Source of the DNA: Chloroflexi bacterium HGW-Chloroflexi-1
GTDB lineage: Bacteria; Chloroflexota; Anaerolineae; CG2-30-64-16
Direction: 5' to 3'
DNA length: 37,501 bases
NCBI GenBank assembly: GCA_002842085.1
Contig: PHCA01000002.1
Span: 1 to 37,501 of the forward strand
Under the pieces are notes generated by a model. That model did no database searches. It worked only from the letters and a program-made list of their open reading frames with translations, and was not told where the DNA came from. The position numbers and the translations under genes are program-made. Shown here piece after piece: positions 7,454-34,534 of this stretch; position 1 is the stretch's first letter, and each line of letters starts with the position of its first letter.

Positions 7454-10400
7454 CTAACGGGTGATGAGGATCCAGGGCAGGTAACTTCGATGCTTACCCG
7501 ATATCACCCCAAAGTAAGCTTCAGAGACCGTCCCTCCTTCGTAAACATCTACGATAACGCTTGCTGGGGTAGTTGGCTGCAAGTCAGGCTGTTCGGTCAA
7601 AGCCACCCGATACCGACCGGCTGTCAGCCCTGCGAATTGAAAGAAGCCGTTGACTTGTGTGAGGGCCTTGGCCAGGATCTCTTCCGAGGCAGCGTCTGCG
7701 CTAGTGGCGCGGGTCAAGACCAGGAGTACGCCAATAACACCGGGTTCATCTACATCGGGTTGGCCGTTGGCATTAAGGTCAAGCCATACTCGCCCGATAA
7801 CACGGCCTACAGAGGTGGGGGTGGGCGTGTCGGTCGGTGTCGCGGTGCTGGTCGGCGTGGTCGTGGGCGTATCGGTTGGCGTGGCCGTGGGCGTATCGGT
7901 CGGCGTCGGTATGCGGGTCGGCGTGGCCGTAGGCGTAGCGGTCGGCGTGGGCGTGTCGGTCGGCGTCGGTGTGCGGGTCGGCGTGGCCGTAGGCGTAGCG
8001 GTCGGCGTCGGTGTGGTCGTCGGCGTGGCCGTAGGCGTAGCGGTCGGCGTCGGTGTGCGGGTCGGCGTGGCCGTAGGCGTAGCGGTCGGCGTCGGTGTGC
8101 GGGTCGGCGTGGCCGTGGGTGTAGCGGTCGGCGTCGGTGTGCGGGTCGGCGTGGCCGTAGGCGTAGCGGTCGGCGTCGGTGTGGTCGTCGGCGTGGCCGT
8201 GGGCGTATCGGTCGGCGTCGGCGTGTTCGTCGGCGTGGTCGTGGGCGTATCGGTCGGCGTGGCCGTGGGCGTGTCGATCGGCATCGGCGTGGTCGTTGGG
8301 GTCCTTGTCGGTGTCGGCGTAGTGCTGGGGAACGGCGTCACCGGGTTAAACGACGCGCCCAGGATCAATTTCCCATAATCTGCGGGAGCGTTATAGGTGT
8401 TACGGCCCTCCCAAACCAGCCAGTTGTCGTTGCTCCCTTTGCGTTTACCGCCATCATCATCGTCATTCAGCCCGAGGTTGAATCCCATGATCTTGCCTTC
8501 AGTCAGCGCCCCGGCGGCCAGATAGTTGGTCGAAATCGCCAACTCCACATCATAACCATCGGGATGTCGTTGCACGGCCCGCATAACGGCCGCACCCGCG
8601 TCCGGCGGCAGTGCTATGCCCAGATCAGTCAACCAACCATCGATCGCCACGGTAAACTGGTGGTCATCGGTCTGGAGGCTCACCTGGTCATTGGCGCCAT
8701 CCAGGGCAATCTCGACGCTGTCGTCGTCCCAGATGTTATCACTGTCCCGCCATAACGCGTCGTCGGACACGTGCGCGGCAAAATAGAGCCAGTCGTTGTC
8801 CCAGAGACTACGCACGTCAGCGGAGATATCGTCCGTTGAAGGCGAGGGTTGCCCCATGACGAAGTCCGCGCTGTTCCCGTGCAAGGAGACCATCTCGGTC
8901 TGCCCCCATTCACTGAGGTCACCGTCAATGATCGGTGGGGTCGCCACATATCGGCTCACCAGCGAACGCGGCATCACAGTTGGTGTAGGCGTGAGCGAAG
9001 GGGTCGGGGTGCGCGAGGGAGTAGGCGTGTGCGAGGGGTTGGGTGTCAGGCTGACGGTAGGCGTCGGACTGGCGGTAACCGTAGGACGCGGCGTCCGGGT
9101 AGGTTCAGCCGCGTCGAAATAGTGAATCTCCATTCGCGGCCGAAAGCTCGTTGTCGTGTACTCGCTGGCGTGAAAATAGTATTGGACGTTGCTTTCAGCG
9201 GCGCCTTTCAGTAACAGGCCGTAGTTGTTCGCAGGCTCGGCAGCCCATCCTTGCACAAGGGAAGTTACATCCACCGATGCCCAGCCACTCGTCTGATACA
9301 AATAGGCCACCCCAGCCGCGATGACCTCGCGGTCAGTGCTGCCGGTTGCGCCCGGGCCTTCCCAGCGCGTGCTGGCAGTCGCGAAATCCCAGGTGGAAGC
9401 TAGCTCAGCCCAAGGGCGTAGCATCCGATGCGCACTCAGGGTGAGGCCCCGCGGGGGCTCACTTGAGCTTCCATACTGGTGCAGGTGCAAGGTTGCCGTC
9501 ATGACGCGCGCCTGGCGCGGCACTGCAGACAGGTCAAACCGCAGCAATGTATACATCACGCCCGGGGTACCGACCCACAATCGATTCTTTGCGCCATTGT
9601 TCGTGTCGGGATCCCAGGAGAGCAAGTAGGTATCTTGAAGGCCATCATAGCCGTCCACCCCGGTCTGTAACGTAATCACCTTTGGCGTGCCCGGATAGAC
9701 TACTACATCTACAAAGTGAATGATCTCATCACCATCCTGCGCATTCCAGATACGGAAATCACTATTGGGCCGAGTGCCACCTCCTGGCAGCCCGCCGGCA
9801 AATTCCGCATCCGGCAGATCGAAGACTGCTGTCTGCCAGGTGCGGGTGTTGCGCTTCTGCACGCTGCCTGCAAGCGCATCCTGACCGGATGTGCTATCGT
9901 AGCGAAGCTCCCAGCGATCGGTGCCCTGGTCGTAATACGTGACGCTGATCACGGCCCGGTTGCTGCCGCCGAAGACGTAGTCGTCGTCGACGTCGAAAAA
10001 CAAGTCGTTGTTGCCAGTGGCCTGACCGGTACGGCGCGCATAGCGACCTTCAGCCGTTGCATCAACCTTCCATAGCGGCACCGATTTTCCCCCAGGCACG
10101 GCATCGTTCTGATAGAGCCAGAATTCGAAGTTGCCATAGTCGGGGAACCCGCTATATTCCGTCTCGCGCAGTGCAACCCAGGCACTCGGAGTGTCTTGCG
10201 GAGTCCGGCCCAGGTACTTGCGGGTAAACTCCAGCAAGTCCTGACGATCGGGCGACGTGACGATTTTGGTATCGAGCATCAGGAAGTCTACGTGCTTGTC
10301 CAGGGCGCTGTAGAGTCCCCACATCGTCCCGGTGCGGCCCTCCAGGAAATTCGGCACATCTGAGCCTTCAAACGCCGTCGGCACCTGATTGCCCCACATG

Positions 10401-28821: not shown

Positions 28822-30281
28822 GACACAGCCTCCGACACAAACGCTCTGTCATTCTGCGCCTCGTACGCGCCAAAGACCGCGCCGACGATCATAAAGAAAT
28901 ACATGTTGCCGAGTTGAGCGCGATATGCATCGAACGAGACAGCAAGCACCCCATAACCCATCAGCAGGCCCAAGACTGCAGCCGGCCAATCGCGATCGCG
29001 GTTGGTGCGCAGCAACCCCAGCGCACGCCAGCCGATCAGGCCCAAGAGCGCTAAGAGCGGCAACAGCCCAACCAACCCGGCTGAAGTCAGCACATAGATA
29101 AACATATTGTGCGGGTGATCCACCGGTTGGAGCACTGCCCCGGAAACGGGGCGCCAACCGGCTGCAAGCGCCGCCTCGCCGTAGTTATCTAACCCTAACC
29201 CAAACACCGGCGACTGCACTGCAATCTGCAGCCCGATCTCGATTGCATCGACACGATAGTCGATCGGCTTCTGTGATTGGAGCCGCTCTTCAATCGCGCG
29301 CGTGTCCACCCCCCCGTAGGTGACGATCAGTGCCAGGATCAGGAACAGCGGCGCCACGTACAACGCGTAGCGTTGCGCCCGGCGGCTCAGAAGGGCCGGC
29401 ACAAGCAAACTCGGAAGGGCCGCAGCCCACCCGCCTCGAACGTAGGTCAGCAGCAGCCCAGCAAGAATCGCGACCAGCGCGGCGCTCCACGCGAGACGGC
29501 TCCCCAGCTTACGGGCGCGCACGGCGCCCAGAAAAGTAACTGCGACCGTCACGGCGAGCGTCATGGACATGATGGCGGCAGATCCAAAAAGGCTATTAAC
29601 CTTCACGGAGTATCGCCCGTAGGCCTGATGAAAAAGGTTGGGGGAAAGAACTGTCTGCAGGGTGAGTTGCTCACGCGCGGCAATCAGACCCATGGCTGCC
29701 CCGGCGATGGCGATGGCGATGGCCAGGCGAGCCAGCCCCTGTTTGCTGCCGAGCAAATTGCGCGCGAAATAGAACCAGAGCAGCGGCAAGACCACGAAGT
29801 CGAAGACGTTCTGAATACCACCAACGATGCCCAGTCGAGAGGCCGGCACCGAGAGCAACATGCCAAGCGCAAACAGTCCGCTAAGAACTTCGATGGCAGT
29901 GAAGCGCAAGAGCCGACGCCGATTGGCGGCCCGCTGCGCCATGAGCAGCAAGAGCAGAGACAGCGCCACAATCCGGTGCAAGCCCAGGTTGGGCAACCCG
30001 CTCCCCATGTCCAGGTTGAAAAAGCGATGAAACGGCGCCAGCACCACCCATAGCAGGAGGCCCTGGTCAGGTGCCACCACCAACAGGAGCAACAAGGTCG
30101 CAAGGCCTAGCACGACCGATGCCAACTGGACTTGATCAGACGTAAACGCGCTTGTCAACGCAGCGGCAACCCCGATCGCGACAGCCGCGCCCACCACATT
30201 CACGCCGGCCGAGAGGAGACGGTCGCTCACTGCGGCCAACGCGGATGGTTGCCCGCCCGGTGTGGCCGATCCCCCGTTCAC
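28818..30281 (-). CDS. Wzy/O-antigen ligase-like polysaccharide polymerase
   Basis: 487 residues with roughly ten to twelve hydrophobic segments, an integral membrane protein of the O-antigen ligase/polymerase (Wzy_C, PF04932) family. The family core is visible as LLLTYVRGGWAAALPSLLVP. The large periplasmic loop holds SQKPIDYRVDAIEIG, FGLGLDNYGEAALAAGW and DHPHNMFIYVLTSAGLVGLL, where the conserved His and Gly residues lie. It should join lipid-linked repeat units on the outer face of the cytoplasmic membrane, or ligate a chain to an acceptor. The GTG at 30281 overlaps the Wzz-like stop (GTGA). Between Wzz and glycosyltransferases a polymerase role is more likely than ligase. Confidence 0.85.
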   Translation of the reverse strand: MNGGSATPGGQPSALAAVSDRLLSAGVNVVGAAVAIGVAAALTSAFTSDQVQLASVVLGLATLLLLLVVAPDQGLLLWVVLAPFHRFFNLDMGSGLPNLGLHRIVALSLLLLLMAQRAANRRRLLRFTAIEVLSGLFALGMLLSVPASRLGIVGGIQNVFDFVVLPLLWFYFARNLLGSKQGLARLAIAIAIAGAAMGLIAAREQLTLQTVLSPNLFHQAYGRYSVKVNSLFGSAAIMSMTLAVTVAVTFLGAVRARKLGSRLAWSAALVAILAGLLLTYVRGGWAAALPSLLVPALLSRRAQRYALYVAPLFLILALIVTYGGVDTRAIEERLQSQKPIDYRVDAIEIGLQIAVQSPVFGLGLDNYGEAALAAGWRPVSGAVLQPVDHPHNMFIYVLTSAGLVGLLPLLALLGLIGWRALGLLRTNRDRDWPAAVLGLLMGYGVLAVSFDAYRAQLGNMYFFMIVGAVFGAYEAQNDRAFVSEAVS

Positions 30282-31465
30282 GCCTGCTCCTGTTGGCGAC
30301 GCGGTGTGCGGCGCAGTATCTGCTCCAGGAACTCCAGCACGAATGCCAAAACAACGCCTGCAACCAGGCTCAAACCGCCGCCGAGGAGCGCGGTTCTCAC
30401 TGTGCGGGTGGCGACCTGGCTGCGCGGGGTGCTGGGCGAACTGATGATTTGCAAGTAGCCGATGTTACGACTCTGGCTCACCTTCAGCCGTGCCTCACGT
30501 GCTTTGGCCGCCAGGAAGTTGCGGGAGTCCTGCTTTTCCTGCACTGCATCCACAAGTTGCCGATATTGGCCGGCGATCGTGATCAATGAAGCCAGGTTGG
30601 TTTGATGCTTTGCCACAAGCGCGTACGCGTTGGCGGCGCGCGCACGCTGGCCGGCGGCCTCCACACGGCGGTTGACAGCCGTCACGTTGAGATCCTGGGC
30701 CAACTTGGTCATGTATTGCGCCTCGGGACCATCGGCCGCCTGGGCAGAAGCCTGAGCCTGGGCATCTTTGACCTGCTGTTCCAGCGCTTCGACGATTGCA
30801 CCGAGACGTTGAGCCTCAATATTGGCCTCCTCCTGCGCGGCGATGAGGCTGCGGATGGCGTCCTGTTCGGCAATAATCTCCCGATCCACATATTCTAGCT
30901 CGTTGGCCAGTTTGAAGCGTAGCAGCTCTTCCTGCGCAGCGTCGAGCTCCCGGTCAGCAGCCGCAAGCGCGGCATCGAGGAACCGGCCCAAGGTCTCCAA
31001 AGGCCGCGCACGGCTCTGACGCAACTCCTCAAGCGCCAGCTCAACTTGTTTAACGAGCAGCGTCTCTGCGTCCTCTGGCTTCTCCGCCGCTACAGACACT
31101 GTCAACAGATCAATCCAGGGATCGCGCACGACCGACACACTTGCGGCCAGGTCATCTGCCGTCACATCAATGCCAGTTTCGGCCTGGGTTTGCTGAGCGA
31201 TCTTCGAGCTGCGCACCAGGTAACTGAACTGGAAGAAGATCTGATTAACGATGTCCGATGCCGTAGCCGTATTCAGCCGCGTGTAAAGGGTGACCTCTTC
31301 CGGCTCCAACGGGAGCAACTGAAGCACCAGCGAAGACTGATAGATTGGCGGGCTCAACCAATCGCACCCCAGGATGATCGTCATCGTCGCCGCAAAAAGC
31401 AGCAGGATCACCCACAGCCGTTTCTTGAGGATCGCAATATATGTCCAGAAGCTTGTCGTTTCCAT
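30278..31465 (-). CDS. Wzz/PCP-family chain-length determinant (co-polymerase)
   Basis: 395 residues with the two-helix topology of polysaccharide co-polymerases. TM1 is at about 17-37 (KRLWVILLLFAATMTIILG) and TM2 at about 365-385 (GGGLSLVAGVVLAFVLEFLE). A long periplasmic coiled coil occupies about 150-330. The Pro-containing run IISSPSTPRSQVATRTVRTA just before TM2 is typical. There is no fused tyrosine kinase and no Tyr-rich tail, so it resembles the kinase-less or split type. It should set polymer length together with the adjacent Wzy. It is the first gene of the 31465-16827 run; the ribosome site at the ATG is weak. Confidence 0.87.
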   Translation of the reverse strand: METTSFWTYIAILKKRLWVILLLFAATMTIILGCDWLSPPIYQSSLVLQLLPLEPEEVTLYTRLNTATASDIVNQIFFQFSYLVRSSKIAQQTQAETGIDVTADDLAASVSVVRDPWIDLLTVSVAAEKPEDAETLLVKQVELALEELRQSRARPLETLGRFLDAALAAADRELDAAQEELLRFKLANELEYVDREIIAEQDAIRSLIAAQEEANIEAQRLGAIVEALEQQVKDAQAQASAQAADGPEAQYMTKLAQDLNVTAVNRRVEAAGQRARAANAYALVAKHQTNLASLITIAGQYRQLVDAVQEKQDSRNFLAAKAREARLKVSQSRNIGYLQIISSPSTPRSQVATRTVRTALLGGGLSLVAGVVLAFVLEFLEQILRRTPRRQQEQA

Positions 31466-31510
31466 GATGCACTCATCTTAAACCGTTTTCAGAGATATCC
31501 ATTTGACAAA

Positions 31511-31580
31511 GCCTAACCAAGAACTGACCGGACGCTGCGCGGCCTCACCGCGCAGCGTCCGGTTAAGCGACTTGTTGGGC
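31511..31580. repeat. Integron attC-like recombination site (70 bp), isolated
   Basis: The element starts with GCCTAAC (31511-31517, consensus RYYYAAC) and ends with GTTGGGC (31574-31580, consensus GTTRRRY). Between them lies a perfect 16-bp stem, ACCGGACGCTGCGCGG (31527-31542) and CCGCGCAGCGTCCGGT (31548-31563), with a 5-nt loop. The segments between the R boxes and the stem are unequal, 9 nt on one side and 10 on the other, as expected for the extrahelical base that sets attC polarity. It lies 46 bp upstream of the Wzz-like start. No integrase or second attC is in the window, so it would be a lone attC. Confidence 0.78.
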
Positions 31581-31648
31581 AGCAGCGGCCGAAATCTATC
31601 CGGCGCAATACACGACAATGCCGCGATTACGCCCTGCGCGGGCTGGCT

Positions 31649-31768
31649 CGCAACTTGCCAGTACAGTTGGGCGTAAGTCCTTTGGCAATTGCAGAACACG
31701 CCGCCCAACTGTTTAAAGTACTTTGCGCATACCCTTCAACTGCACAAGGATTTCCGCCGCAAAGTACT
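31649..31768. repeat. Interleaved inverted repeats at the end of the radical SAM gene
   Basis: Three complementary pairs lie in 120 bp. ACAGTTGGGCG (31663-31673) pairs with CGCCCAACTGT (31702-31712), 11 of 11. AGTACTTTGCG (31717-31727) pairs with CGCAAAGTACT (31758-31768), 11 of 11. TTGCCA (31655-31660) pairs with TGGCAA (31683-31688) and interleaves with the first pair. The right arm of the second pair lies inside the last codons of the radical SAM gene. As RNA from the minus strand this could fold as competing hairpins or a pseudoknot; function unknown, possibly terminator or attenuator. Confidence 0.6.
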
Positions 31769-33178
31769 AAGCCATTGAGGACGATAGCGCTTCCAGTAGA
31801 GATCCCGCAGGATGTGGTACTGGCGAGGGCCGGCCGTGGTCACGATGTCAACGAGGTTAGGGAGCACCACATGGCGCAGGCTTGCATTGTAACGTCGCAT
31901 GTTGCTGGTAATGTACTGATTGAGCTCAACGCGCTGGGAGTCGGTCAGGTAGTCGTAGATGACGCGGGGGCGCTGGCCAACGCCAAAACGGCCTTTGATG
32001 AGTCCCTTCGCCTGCAGTTCCTGTGTGATAGGTGTGCCAGGCAGGGGGATGAACATGCCCCAATTCACATAAGTTGGTTTGCTCCGGAAGATAAAATCGA
32101 TCGTCTCCTTCGCGGTCTCCATGTCCTCGCCGGGGTACATGAAGAAGATATCGGCGAAGACCTTCAAACCATGCCGCTGCATAATTTCCATGGCTCGGTA
32201 GTTGGTGGCGACAGTGGTCTTCTTGCCCATCAAGCTGAGCATCCGATCCGAACCGCTCTCGAAACCCACCGCGACCCCCGTGACACCTTTGGACACGAGG
32301 TACGCACAAATATCATCATTGATGGTATCGACGCGGGCTCTCACCTTGAAATGTATGCCCCAGCCTGGATCAATCGGATCCAAGACTGCCTTCACGCGCT
32401 TGAGGCTCGATACGAACAAGTCGTCCTGAAACATGATATTCCGGGTGCCGAGGCTCCGGATGTGCTCTATCTCGGCGTGGATAGACGCGCTGGGACGCAA
32501 ACTGGTCTTCCGCGTGACCTTGAAGCAGAAGCGGCAGGCGAAAGGGCAACCGCGCGAGGAGACAATGATATCGGTCGTGCCGCGTTGGCCGAGACGCCAG
32601 TACGTGCCCTGGGTGTAAGCCTCGCCGAGCAGACCGCGATCCGGGTAGGGGACCTGGTCCAGGCCGGTGAATGGGGCAACGCAGTTCATGACCCACGAGG
32701 CGCCTTTTTGAAAGCCGAGACCGGGGATATCATCCGTGTCCTGCTGAGCGCGCAAACGCTCGGCCAAAGTACGCAGGGTCCACTCGGACTCGCCGGCTAG
32801 AACGTAAGGAACGTCCGGGAAGTCGGCATGGACAGTCTCGGGGTCTGCTGTGACCTCGGGGCCGCCGAGGACGATAGGACAACTCACCTCCGCCTTCCGA
32901 AGCTCGCGCAGCGTAGCGGCGGTGTCATCGTAAGTGTTGTAGAAGACGGGAAGACCCAGGAGCGAGGGGTCATACGCGACCACGGCATGCACGAGCGCGG
33001 CACGATCGCCCTTGAAGGCATCGATGTCGAAAAGGCGCACTCCGATCCCGGCATCCCGCAAAACTGTAGCCAGGCCCAATAGGGCATAGGGCGGCGAACA
33101 ACCCCCCGTAGCTTCTTTGATCGTGGGATATATGAGCGCGACCCGGAAACTGGATGCGGGGACAGGGGTCAAGGACAT
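31736..33178 (-). CDS. B12-binding-domain radical SAM enzyme
   Basis: 480 residues, ATG at 33178 with AGGAGG four bases upstream. Residues about 1-150 form a cobalamin-binding-like Rossmann domain (FRVALIYPTIKEATGG, LGLATVLRDAGIGVRLFDID, CPIVLGGPEVTADPETV). The radical SAM core follows with SSRGCPFACRFCFKVTRKT near 205-220, the CxxxCxxC that ligates the 4Fe-4S cluster. It continues with FQDDLFV, GVAVGFESGSDRML, FFMYPGEDMETAKETIDFI and WGMFIPLPGTPITQEL. Members of this class methylate or rearrange unactivated carbons in lipids, cofactors and antibiotics; the substrate here is unknown. It stands alone between gaps with its own promoter. Confidence 0.86.
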   Translation of the reverse strand: MSLTPVPASSFRVALIYPTIKEATGGCSPPYALLGLATVLRDAGIGVRLFDIDAFKGDRAALVHAVVAYDPSLLGLPVFYNTYDDTAATLRELRKAEVSCPIVLGGPEVTADPETVHADFPDVPYVLAGESEWTLRTLAERLRAQQDTDDIPGLGFQKGASWVMNCVAPFTGLDQVPYPDRGLLGEAYTQGTYWRLGQRGTTDIIVSSRGCPFACRFCFKVTRKTSLRPSASIHAEIEHIRSLGTRNIMFQDDLFVSSLKRVKAVLDPIDPGWGIHFKVRARVDTINDDICAYLVSKGVTGVAVGFESGSDRMLSLMGKKTTVATNYRAMEIMQRHGLKVFADIFFMYPGEDMETAKETIDFIFRSKPTYVNWGMFIPLPGTPITQELQAKGLIKGRFGVGQRPRVIYDYLTDSQRVELNQYITSNMRRYNASLRHVVLPNLVDIVTTAGPRQYHILRDLYWKRYRPQWLSTLRRKSLCS

Positions 33179-33406: not shown

Positions 33407-34534
33407 TCACTGACGTGAACGCAGCACATCCTCGTAAAGAGCCAGGTTATCGACCGCAACGCGCGCCCAATTGAACTCGGCCAGCAGCCGTTGGCGGAGA
33501 CCGGTTGGCGCTGGGCTTGAGAGTGCTGCCTGTACCCCGGCCCGGATCGAGGCTCGATCATAGGGATCGCAATACCAGGCCTGATCACCCAGCAGTTCGG
33601 GCAGCGGCGAAATCCTGGTAGAGACGATGCGCGTGCCGCTAGCGCCGGCTTCCAGGCTGGACAAGCCCGGCAGTTCCACCCAACTGGCCATGATATGCGC
33701 GGCCGCGCCGGCGTAGAGCAGCGGTAGTTCAGCTTCGGGCAGCCAGCCCAGGAAATGTACCCGGCCGCGTCGCCGGCCCAGCTCGTAGCAGCGGTCGGCG
33801 TAGTCCGGCGCAAAGTATGGCGAAACCTTGCCCACAAAGACCAGTGGCACGGGATCATCGTAGAGCGCCTCGATGACGGCGAGCTGGTTCTTCTTTTCCT
33901 CGATGCGCGCGACCTGGGCCAGGTAACCTTCCTCCAACCCGTAACGTGCGCGGAACTCGGCCAGCTCGACCGCGCTGAAGGTCTGTCCGTAAAGATCGGC
34001 ATCGATGCCCAGTGGGCTCAGGCGCATACGCGCACGGACACTGGGTGGCAGCCGAAAGTGCTCGGCGATCCAGGCGTTCTCCCAGCGGCTGCTGGTGGCG
34101 ACGGTGTCAGCACCCAGCAAGACCGAGCGTATCGTGCGCCAGCTATGCTGGAACGGCAGGCGCGCCGTCTGCCATGTCCGGTAGACCTGCCACGCCCGCG
34201 CCTTGCCCAGCCAGCGCACCAGCAGCCGCCAACGCGGGGCCGAATGCATCGCCCGCTCGAACCAGTCGCGAAAATCGTTGTAATACAGCGGCGAGACGAC
34301 GATGGCGTTGCCACCTGCTCTGGCCCAGGCGACCATCCGCTCAACATGAGGCACCGGAGCCGCGGTAAAAATGTGCAACAGGTCAAACTCGCGCGCGGGA
34401 GGCATCTCCTCCATCTGCCCGATGACCACCTCTGAGCCGAGCCTCACCATGGCCGCGCTCATCTTCTGCATGACGACAGTGTCACCCCCGAAGACGCTGT
34501 CGGCGTCGGGGCGCAGGATCATGGCAATCTTCAT
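33407..34534 (-). CDS. GT4-family glycosyltransferase
   Basis: 375 residues, MKIAMILRPDADSVFGGDTV at the start with the glycine-rich loop of GT-B acceptor domains. The donor domain shows YLAQVARIEEKKNQLAVIEA, VPLVFVGKVSPYFAPDYADR, VHFLGWLPEAELPLLYAGAA and the E-x7-E site in ELPGLSSLEAGASGTRIVST. The ATG at 34534 overlaps the upstream transferase stop (ATGA). It is the last gene of the first transcription group, followed by the radical SAM promoter region. It is expected to add a sugar to the lipid-linked intermediate. Confidence 0.86.
   Translation of the reverse strand: MKIAMILRPDADSVFGGDTVVMQKMSAAMVRLGSEVVIGQMEEMPPAREFDLLHIFTAAPVPHVERMVAWARAGGNAIVVSPLYYNDFRDWFERAMHSAPRWRLLVRWLGKARAWQVYRTWQTARLPFQHSWRTIRSVLLGADTVATSSRWENAWIAEHFRLPPSVRARMRLSPLGIDADLYGQTFSAVELAEFRARYGLEEGYLAQVARIEEKKNQLAVIEALYDDPVPLVFVGKVSPYFAPDYADRCYELGRRRGRVHFLGWLPEAELPLLYAGAAAHIMASWVELPGLSSLEAGASGTRIVSTRISPLPELLGDQAWYCDPYDRASIRAGVQAALSSPAPTGLRQRLLAEFNWARVAVDNLALYEDVLRSRQ

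Follow-up and report, generated by a model that had tools for sequence, protein, structure and literature searches.

Gene context of a hairpin in a surface-polysaccharide operon

The window, that is, the whole 37.5-kb stretch of DNA analysed here, corresponds to the entire contig C365 of the host genome (G000; 4.45 Mb in 419 contigs). It carries a surface-polysaccharide operon in which the minus strand reads, in order, glycosyltransferases, a radical-SAM protein, a hairpin, a Wzz-like protein, a Wzy_C protein and more glycosyltransferases. The features relevant to this hairpin are the following:

30278-31465, minus strand: Wzz-like chain-length determinant gene, downstream neighbour of the hairpin (weak PF02706 match, E 0.0017; TIGR01006/TIGR03007)
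31478-31708, minus strand: 76-codon frame through the hairpin, read from the sequence, with a TTG start (about 31708) inside a repeat element and a TAA stop
31511-31580, minus strand: attC site with OXA-2-type structure, R'' side at 31580 and R' side at 31511 (blastn, reciprocal search, covariance model, alignment-based orientation)
31511-31517, minus strand: R' box GTTAGGC, the same as R' of the OXA-2 attC in pB8
31527-31563, no strand assigned: perfect 16-bp stem and 5-nt loop, comprising the L boxes and terminal structure (inverted-repeat search, fold)
31574-31580, minus strand: R'' box GCCCAAC, the same as R'' of attC-oxa2
31662-31769, minus strand: dispersed 108-bp repeat with two palindromes (97-98% identical copies at G000:C160, about 9561-9668, G001:C294 and G001:C163)
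31736-33178, minus strand: B12-binding radical-SAM protein gene, upstream neighbour of the hairpin (Pfam PF04055, PF02310)
33407-34534 and upstream, minus strand: glycosyltransferase genes of the surface-polysaccharide operon

The matches that identify the Wzz-like gene (to Wzz, the CspC family and XrtA chain-length proteins) are weak but consistent, and the hairpin does adjoin this gene, as the initial annotation had placed it. For the radical-SAM protein, the nearest NCBIfam model is a PhpK-type P-methyltransferase, which it matches far under the cut-off.

On the plus strand the hairpin is bounded by GCCTAAC (31511-31517) and GTTGGGC (31574-31580), which match the RYYYAAC / GTTRRRY consensus of attC R boxes and complement each other with 6 of 7 Watson-Crick pairs and one mismatch or wobble. 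Between them lies a perfect 16-bp inverted repeat (31527-31542 / 31548-31563) with a 5-nt loop, flanked by unpaired spacers of 9 and 10 nt. Boxes, stem and loop are exactly as first described. The initial annotation had also read the one-base difference between the spacers as an extrahelical base; the difference itself is there, but the reading is wrong, since such bases belong to the R''-L'' arm of the stem and not to the spacers.

With arms of 16 bp as against 13 bp for the runner-up, this is the strongest hairpin in the window, and it is present only once in the host genome. Its folding energy as a single DNA strand is -29 kcal/mol, compared with a mean of -12.6 for shuffled sequences (z -7.5; 0 of 200 shuffles equally stable), and both strands are equally stable in this form (-29.0 and -29.4 kcal/mol). 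Neither an R-box and fold scan nor the covariance model described below found a second attC-like hairpin in the 37.5 kb, in agreement with the earlier description of a lone site. The 76-codon minus-strand frame that had been pointed out as running through the site is present and contains NKSLNRTLRGEAAQRP; no relatives of it were found and it is probably not a gene.

The hairpin is homologous to attC sites of the OXA-2 type

When the 101-bp region of the site was compared by blastn with 72,556 plasmids, the best matches were attCs of integron cassettes. At the top stood a 1,983-bp Marinobacter circle (75% over 80 nt, E 1e-4), followed by blaOXA-21/OXA-2 cassettes (76% over 75 nt, E 5e-4) and other cassettes of the OXA-2 family. 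The plasmid matches that were inspected coincide with the 3' end of the cassette gene, which is the attC position, and the reversed sequence, used as a control against the same plasmids, picked up no attC, with no E-value under 0.07. Conversely, attC-oxa2, a site whose recombination has been published (PMC2727003), had four matches in 396 Anaerolineae genomes, one of which was the window site, aligned over all 70 positions (E 6e-6). Searches of Rfam and of phage records gave nothing useful and no meaningful match, respectively.

The alignment with the attC of blaOXA-2 / blaOXA-21, known from class 1 integrons, is collinear over the full 70 nt at 76% identity, and includes an R'' box of GCCCAAC and the same GGACGCTGCGCG...CCGCGCAGCG core. 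The score of the window site against attC-oxa2 is 49 on the minus and 40 on the plus strand, whereas its score against the other attCs compared is at most 27. Among 20,000 scrambles in which the R boxes and a perfect stem were kept, none reached 49, the maximum of 48 being close to the observed value.

To make a covariance model, R1, we took 26 attCs that an R-box pattern had picked out from genomes of the class and from plasmid integrons. This model scores the window site at 21.7 bits on the plus strand and 19.6 on the minus strand, with an E-value of 2.5e-6 in 301 bp that becomes about 0.04 when scaled to the genome, and the best scores in four relatives without strong attCs are 15.5-20.4 bits. 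Taken alone this score is borderline, and it is the sequence homology that decides the identification as an attC. With R1, the covariance-model check that the initial annotation had proposed is equivocal at the genome scale; genuine OXA-2-type attCs, however, score no better (OXA-2 23.9, OXA-21 17.1 and Marinobacter 20.3 bits), so that the modest score reflects the OXA-2 subtype and not a missing attC character. R1 is ambiguous as to strand, and the minus orientation was assigned because homology to attC-oxa2 scores higher on that strand.

It could be argued that the hairpin is no attC but a chance structure, a transcription terminator or a REP-like palindrome whose outer arms read GCCTAAC and GTTGGGC by coincidence, given that its stem is perfect, unlike those of other aligned attCs, and its covariance score borderline. 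No T-run follows the stem on either strand, though, nor does a terminator scan report the hairpin, and a dispersed palindrome would not be single-copy; the dispersed element here is the neighbouring one at 31662-31769. Moreover, the collinear full-length homology to attC-oxa2 spans stem, spacers and both R boxes, and hairpin-preserving scrambles fall short of its score. We therefore regard such an origin as very improbable. The sequence comparisons support reading the 31511-31580 hairpin as a true integron attC with OXA-2-type structure and in minus-strand orientation. That it is an attC had been proposed in the initial annotation from its boxes and stem.

The host genome encodes an intact integron integrase

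An intact integron integrase of 320 aa is encoded elsewhere in the genome, near a contig end (C220:27144-28106). It scores 490 bits against TIGR02249 (cut-off 265), and is 67% identical to the integron integrase on a Kovacikia minuta plasmid and 55% identical to IntI1. R1 additionally found 11 further attC hits on five contigs of the host genome, namely C376 (4), C222 (2), C381 (3), C244 and C216, with scores of 17-61 bits. The genome-wide search for an IntI gene and more attC copies, suggested earlier as a check, was therefore positive on both counts and adds to the case for the site being an attC. Within the window itself there is no IntI, and the combination of intI and attI adjoining an attC that marks a complete integron is absent.

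That Chloroflexi carry integrases is long established (PMC2426708). Among relatives of the same genus and family, we observed incomplete integron-integrase matches at G001:C376 and at G006:C16, C52 and C112.

Two of three extrahelical bases are altered

Whereas attC-oxa2 has three extrahelical bases, only one such position is left in the window site, and the definition of an attC asks for two to three on the R''-L'' arm (PMC2727003). In the alignment, the extrahelical T of L'' is deleted, while the extrahelical A of GGAC is paired by a new T in L'. By our reading, the conserved first extrahelical position is kept, with T replacing C on the top strand, beside a mismatch; the identity of this first base is of little weight for activity (PMC2727003).

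Mutagenesis of another attC has shown what such changes can do: once its extrahelical bases had been deleted, recombination of attC x attI dropped about 6-fold and attC x attC deletion 130- to 490-fold, and strand polarity was lost (PMC2727003). Since two of the three bases are lost and the stem is fully paired, the window site is predicted to be a poor recombination substrate that hardly favours either strand. By analogy with the mutants, it should be weak and poorly polarised, yet not necessarily dead. We conclude that this attC is probably decaying, and it may be a natural case of an attC losing its extrahelical bases, so far a topic of mutagenesis only.

Cassette boundaries and the dispersed repeat

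Because the attC lies on the minus strand, the cassette body would have lain to its right, that is, upstream on the minus strand. Crossover would be expected after the G at 31517 in the R' box. Between the glycosyltransferase gene and the attC, however, no GTTRRRY left junction was found except inside the radical-SAM gene and the dispersed repeat. For the radical-SAM gene, considered as a candidate cassette gene, a search of 297 other genomes of the class brought up no homologue at E 1e-60, and the 3' end of this gene runs into the repeat. Another candidate was a short non-coding cassette spanning about 31709 to 31517, suggested by the GTTGGGC at 31709, which complements R''; it was rejected, since that GTTGGGC belongs to the repeat, which has copies elsewhere. 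As neither a left junction nor a cassette gene was found, cassette insertion is one candidate history and rearrangement from an array an equally possible other.

The 108-bp repeat is fused to the 3' end of the radical-SAM frame and lies 81 bp upstream of the attC; no relatives of these 81 bp were found. Its other copies apparently have a 3-bp flanking duplication, which is missing on the attC side of the window copy, and this suggests loss or rearrangement on that side. As to the element itself, its palindromes are AGTACTTTGCG...CGCAAAGTACT and ACAGTTGGGCG...CGCCCAACTGT, its copies are 97-98% identical across two species of the genus, and no transposase was seen beside it.

The corresponding operons of relatives lack the attC

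Orthologues of the Wzz-like gene occur within orthologous operons in G002 (60% identical) and G007 (56%). A scan of 84,980 genomes for this Wzz family returned two relatives only, both already known; among its relatives with a name are 'Chloroflexi bacterium ADurb.Bin325' and 'Anaerolineae bacterium MO66'. As MO66 matches a genome from the host's own family, we assign the host to class Anaerolineae. What lies between glycosyltransferase and wzz is variable, with a direct junction in G002 (G002:C163), a methyltransferase in G007 (G007:C139), and the radical-SAM gene and hairpin here. No attC lies in this slot in either relative: the two have the operon in common with the host, but not the attC.

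A variable slot next to an attC is what one would see if the site were still in use, with the native IntI inserting and removing cassettes before wzz and thereby swapping polysaccharide tailoring genes. The R boxes are intact, as is the integrase in the genome, and the one extrahelical position that remains is the one whose identity matters little. Were this true, surface-polysaccharide tailoring genes of Anaerolineae would be exchanged as cassettes at a nearly perfectly paired attC. Against continued use stand the single site, the lack of a bounded cassette or of a left junction outside the radical-SAM gene and repeat, the loss of two extrahelical bases and the relatives' slots without an attC. 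Gene turnover in polysaccharide operons is, besides, common without integrons. Present use of the site thus appears very unlikely, and the cassette-type shuffling of this polysaccharide locus put forward in the initial annotation is not supported by what we found.

The site as a probable relic of a former cassette

In our assessment, the observations are best explained if the site is a genuine OXA-2-type attC that formed the 3' end of a former cassette in the polysaccharide operon and is now a decaying relic, a reading to which we assign a probability of roughly 0.85. The simplest route into the operon would be insertion of an attC-bearing cassette by the integrase outside an integron, at a target other than attI. 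The insertion point would be 31517/31516, and the empty site would end in TTAGGCTTTGTC. Off-target activity of IntI has been reported (PMC10127599), and attG sites, at least as they are cited in PMC12444791, offer a precedent for entry of cassettes at non-classical targets; by analogy, entry of the window attC through such a target is plausible. The cassette body on the right of the attC would since have been lost, rearranged or obscured by the dispersed repeat, and the attC would persist between the radical-SAM gene and wzz with its stem perfectly paired.

Alternatively, the site could be the last attC of a former cassette array or of a larger rearranged segment, and not of a single inserted cassette. 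Broken integrase remnants in G001 and G006 point to decay of integrons in this family, and the repeat apparently has no 3-bp duplication where it faces the attC, as might be expected after a deletion. Such a history would, however, have left no further attC or integrase on the 37.5-kb contig, and the surrounding operon is otherwise syntenic with that of relatives. We therefore consider an array remnant rather unlikely, though a more serious contender than either a chance hairpin or a site in current use.

Relation to known attC sites

The window site, which we favour as a single-cassette relic, is new, but lone attCs are already known, and the site establishes no new mechanism. Like a CALIN, it is an attC without a linked integrase; unlike a CALIN, for which at least two attCs are required by default (PMC9024848), it is alone in 37.5 kb. 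A single attC can nonetheless be a true positive (PMC9024848), and under the default two-site threshold of standard software lone attCs inside ordinary operons go unreported.

With the native attCs of the genome and family (C376, C222, C381) the site has the R-box consensus and general architecture in common, but those are mostly 70-130 nt long, have an L'' such as TTCCAGCTGAC and keep the extrahelical A. It differs from the blaOXA-2 / blaOXA-21 attC, apart from its bases, in having no adjoining cassette gene. These comparisons indicate that OXA-2-type attCs, known from the clinic, also occur in Anaerolineae genomes with integrons of their own.

The best plasmid match, the 1,983-bp circle of Marinobacter sp. 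M3C (NZ_CP092287), has three attC-like sites and several small genes, in contrast to the solitary window site. In this record (NZ_CP092287.1) the three sites share one orientation and lie between toxin-antitoxin and cupin genes, with no annotated replication gene; the record resembles excised integron cassettes joined into a circle. Finally, the search with attC-oxa2 also found an Anaerolineae attC at G117:C10:7188-7257 (43 bits) that shares the GGACGCTGCGCGATAAAACCGCGCAGCGC stem. In its terminal stem this attC is almost the same as attC-oxa2, whereas the outer half differs, and terminal structures may be exchanged between attCs.
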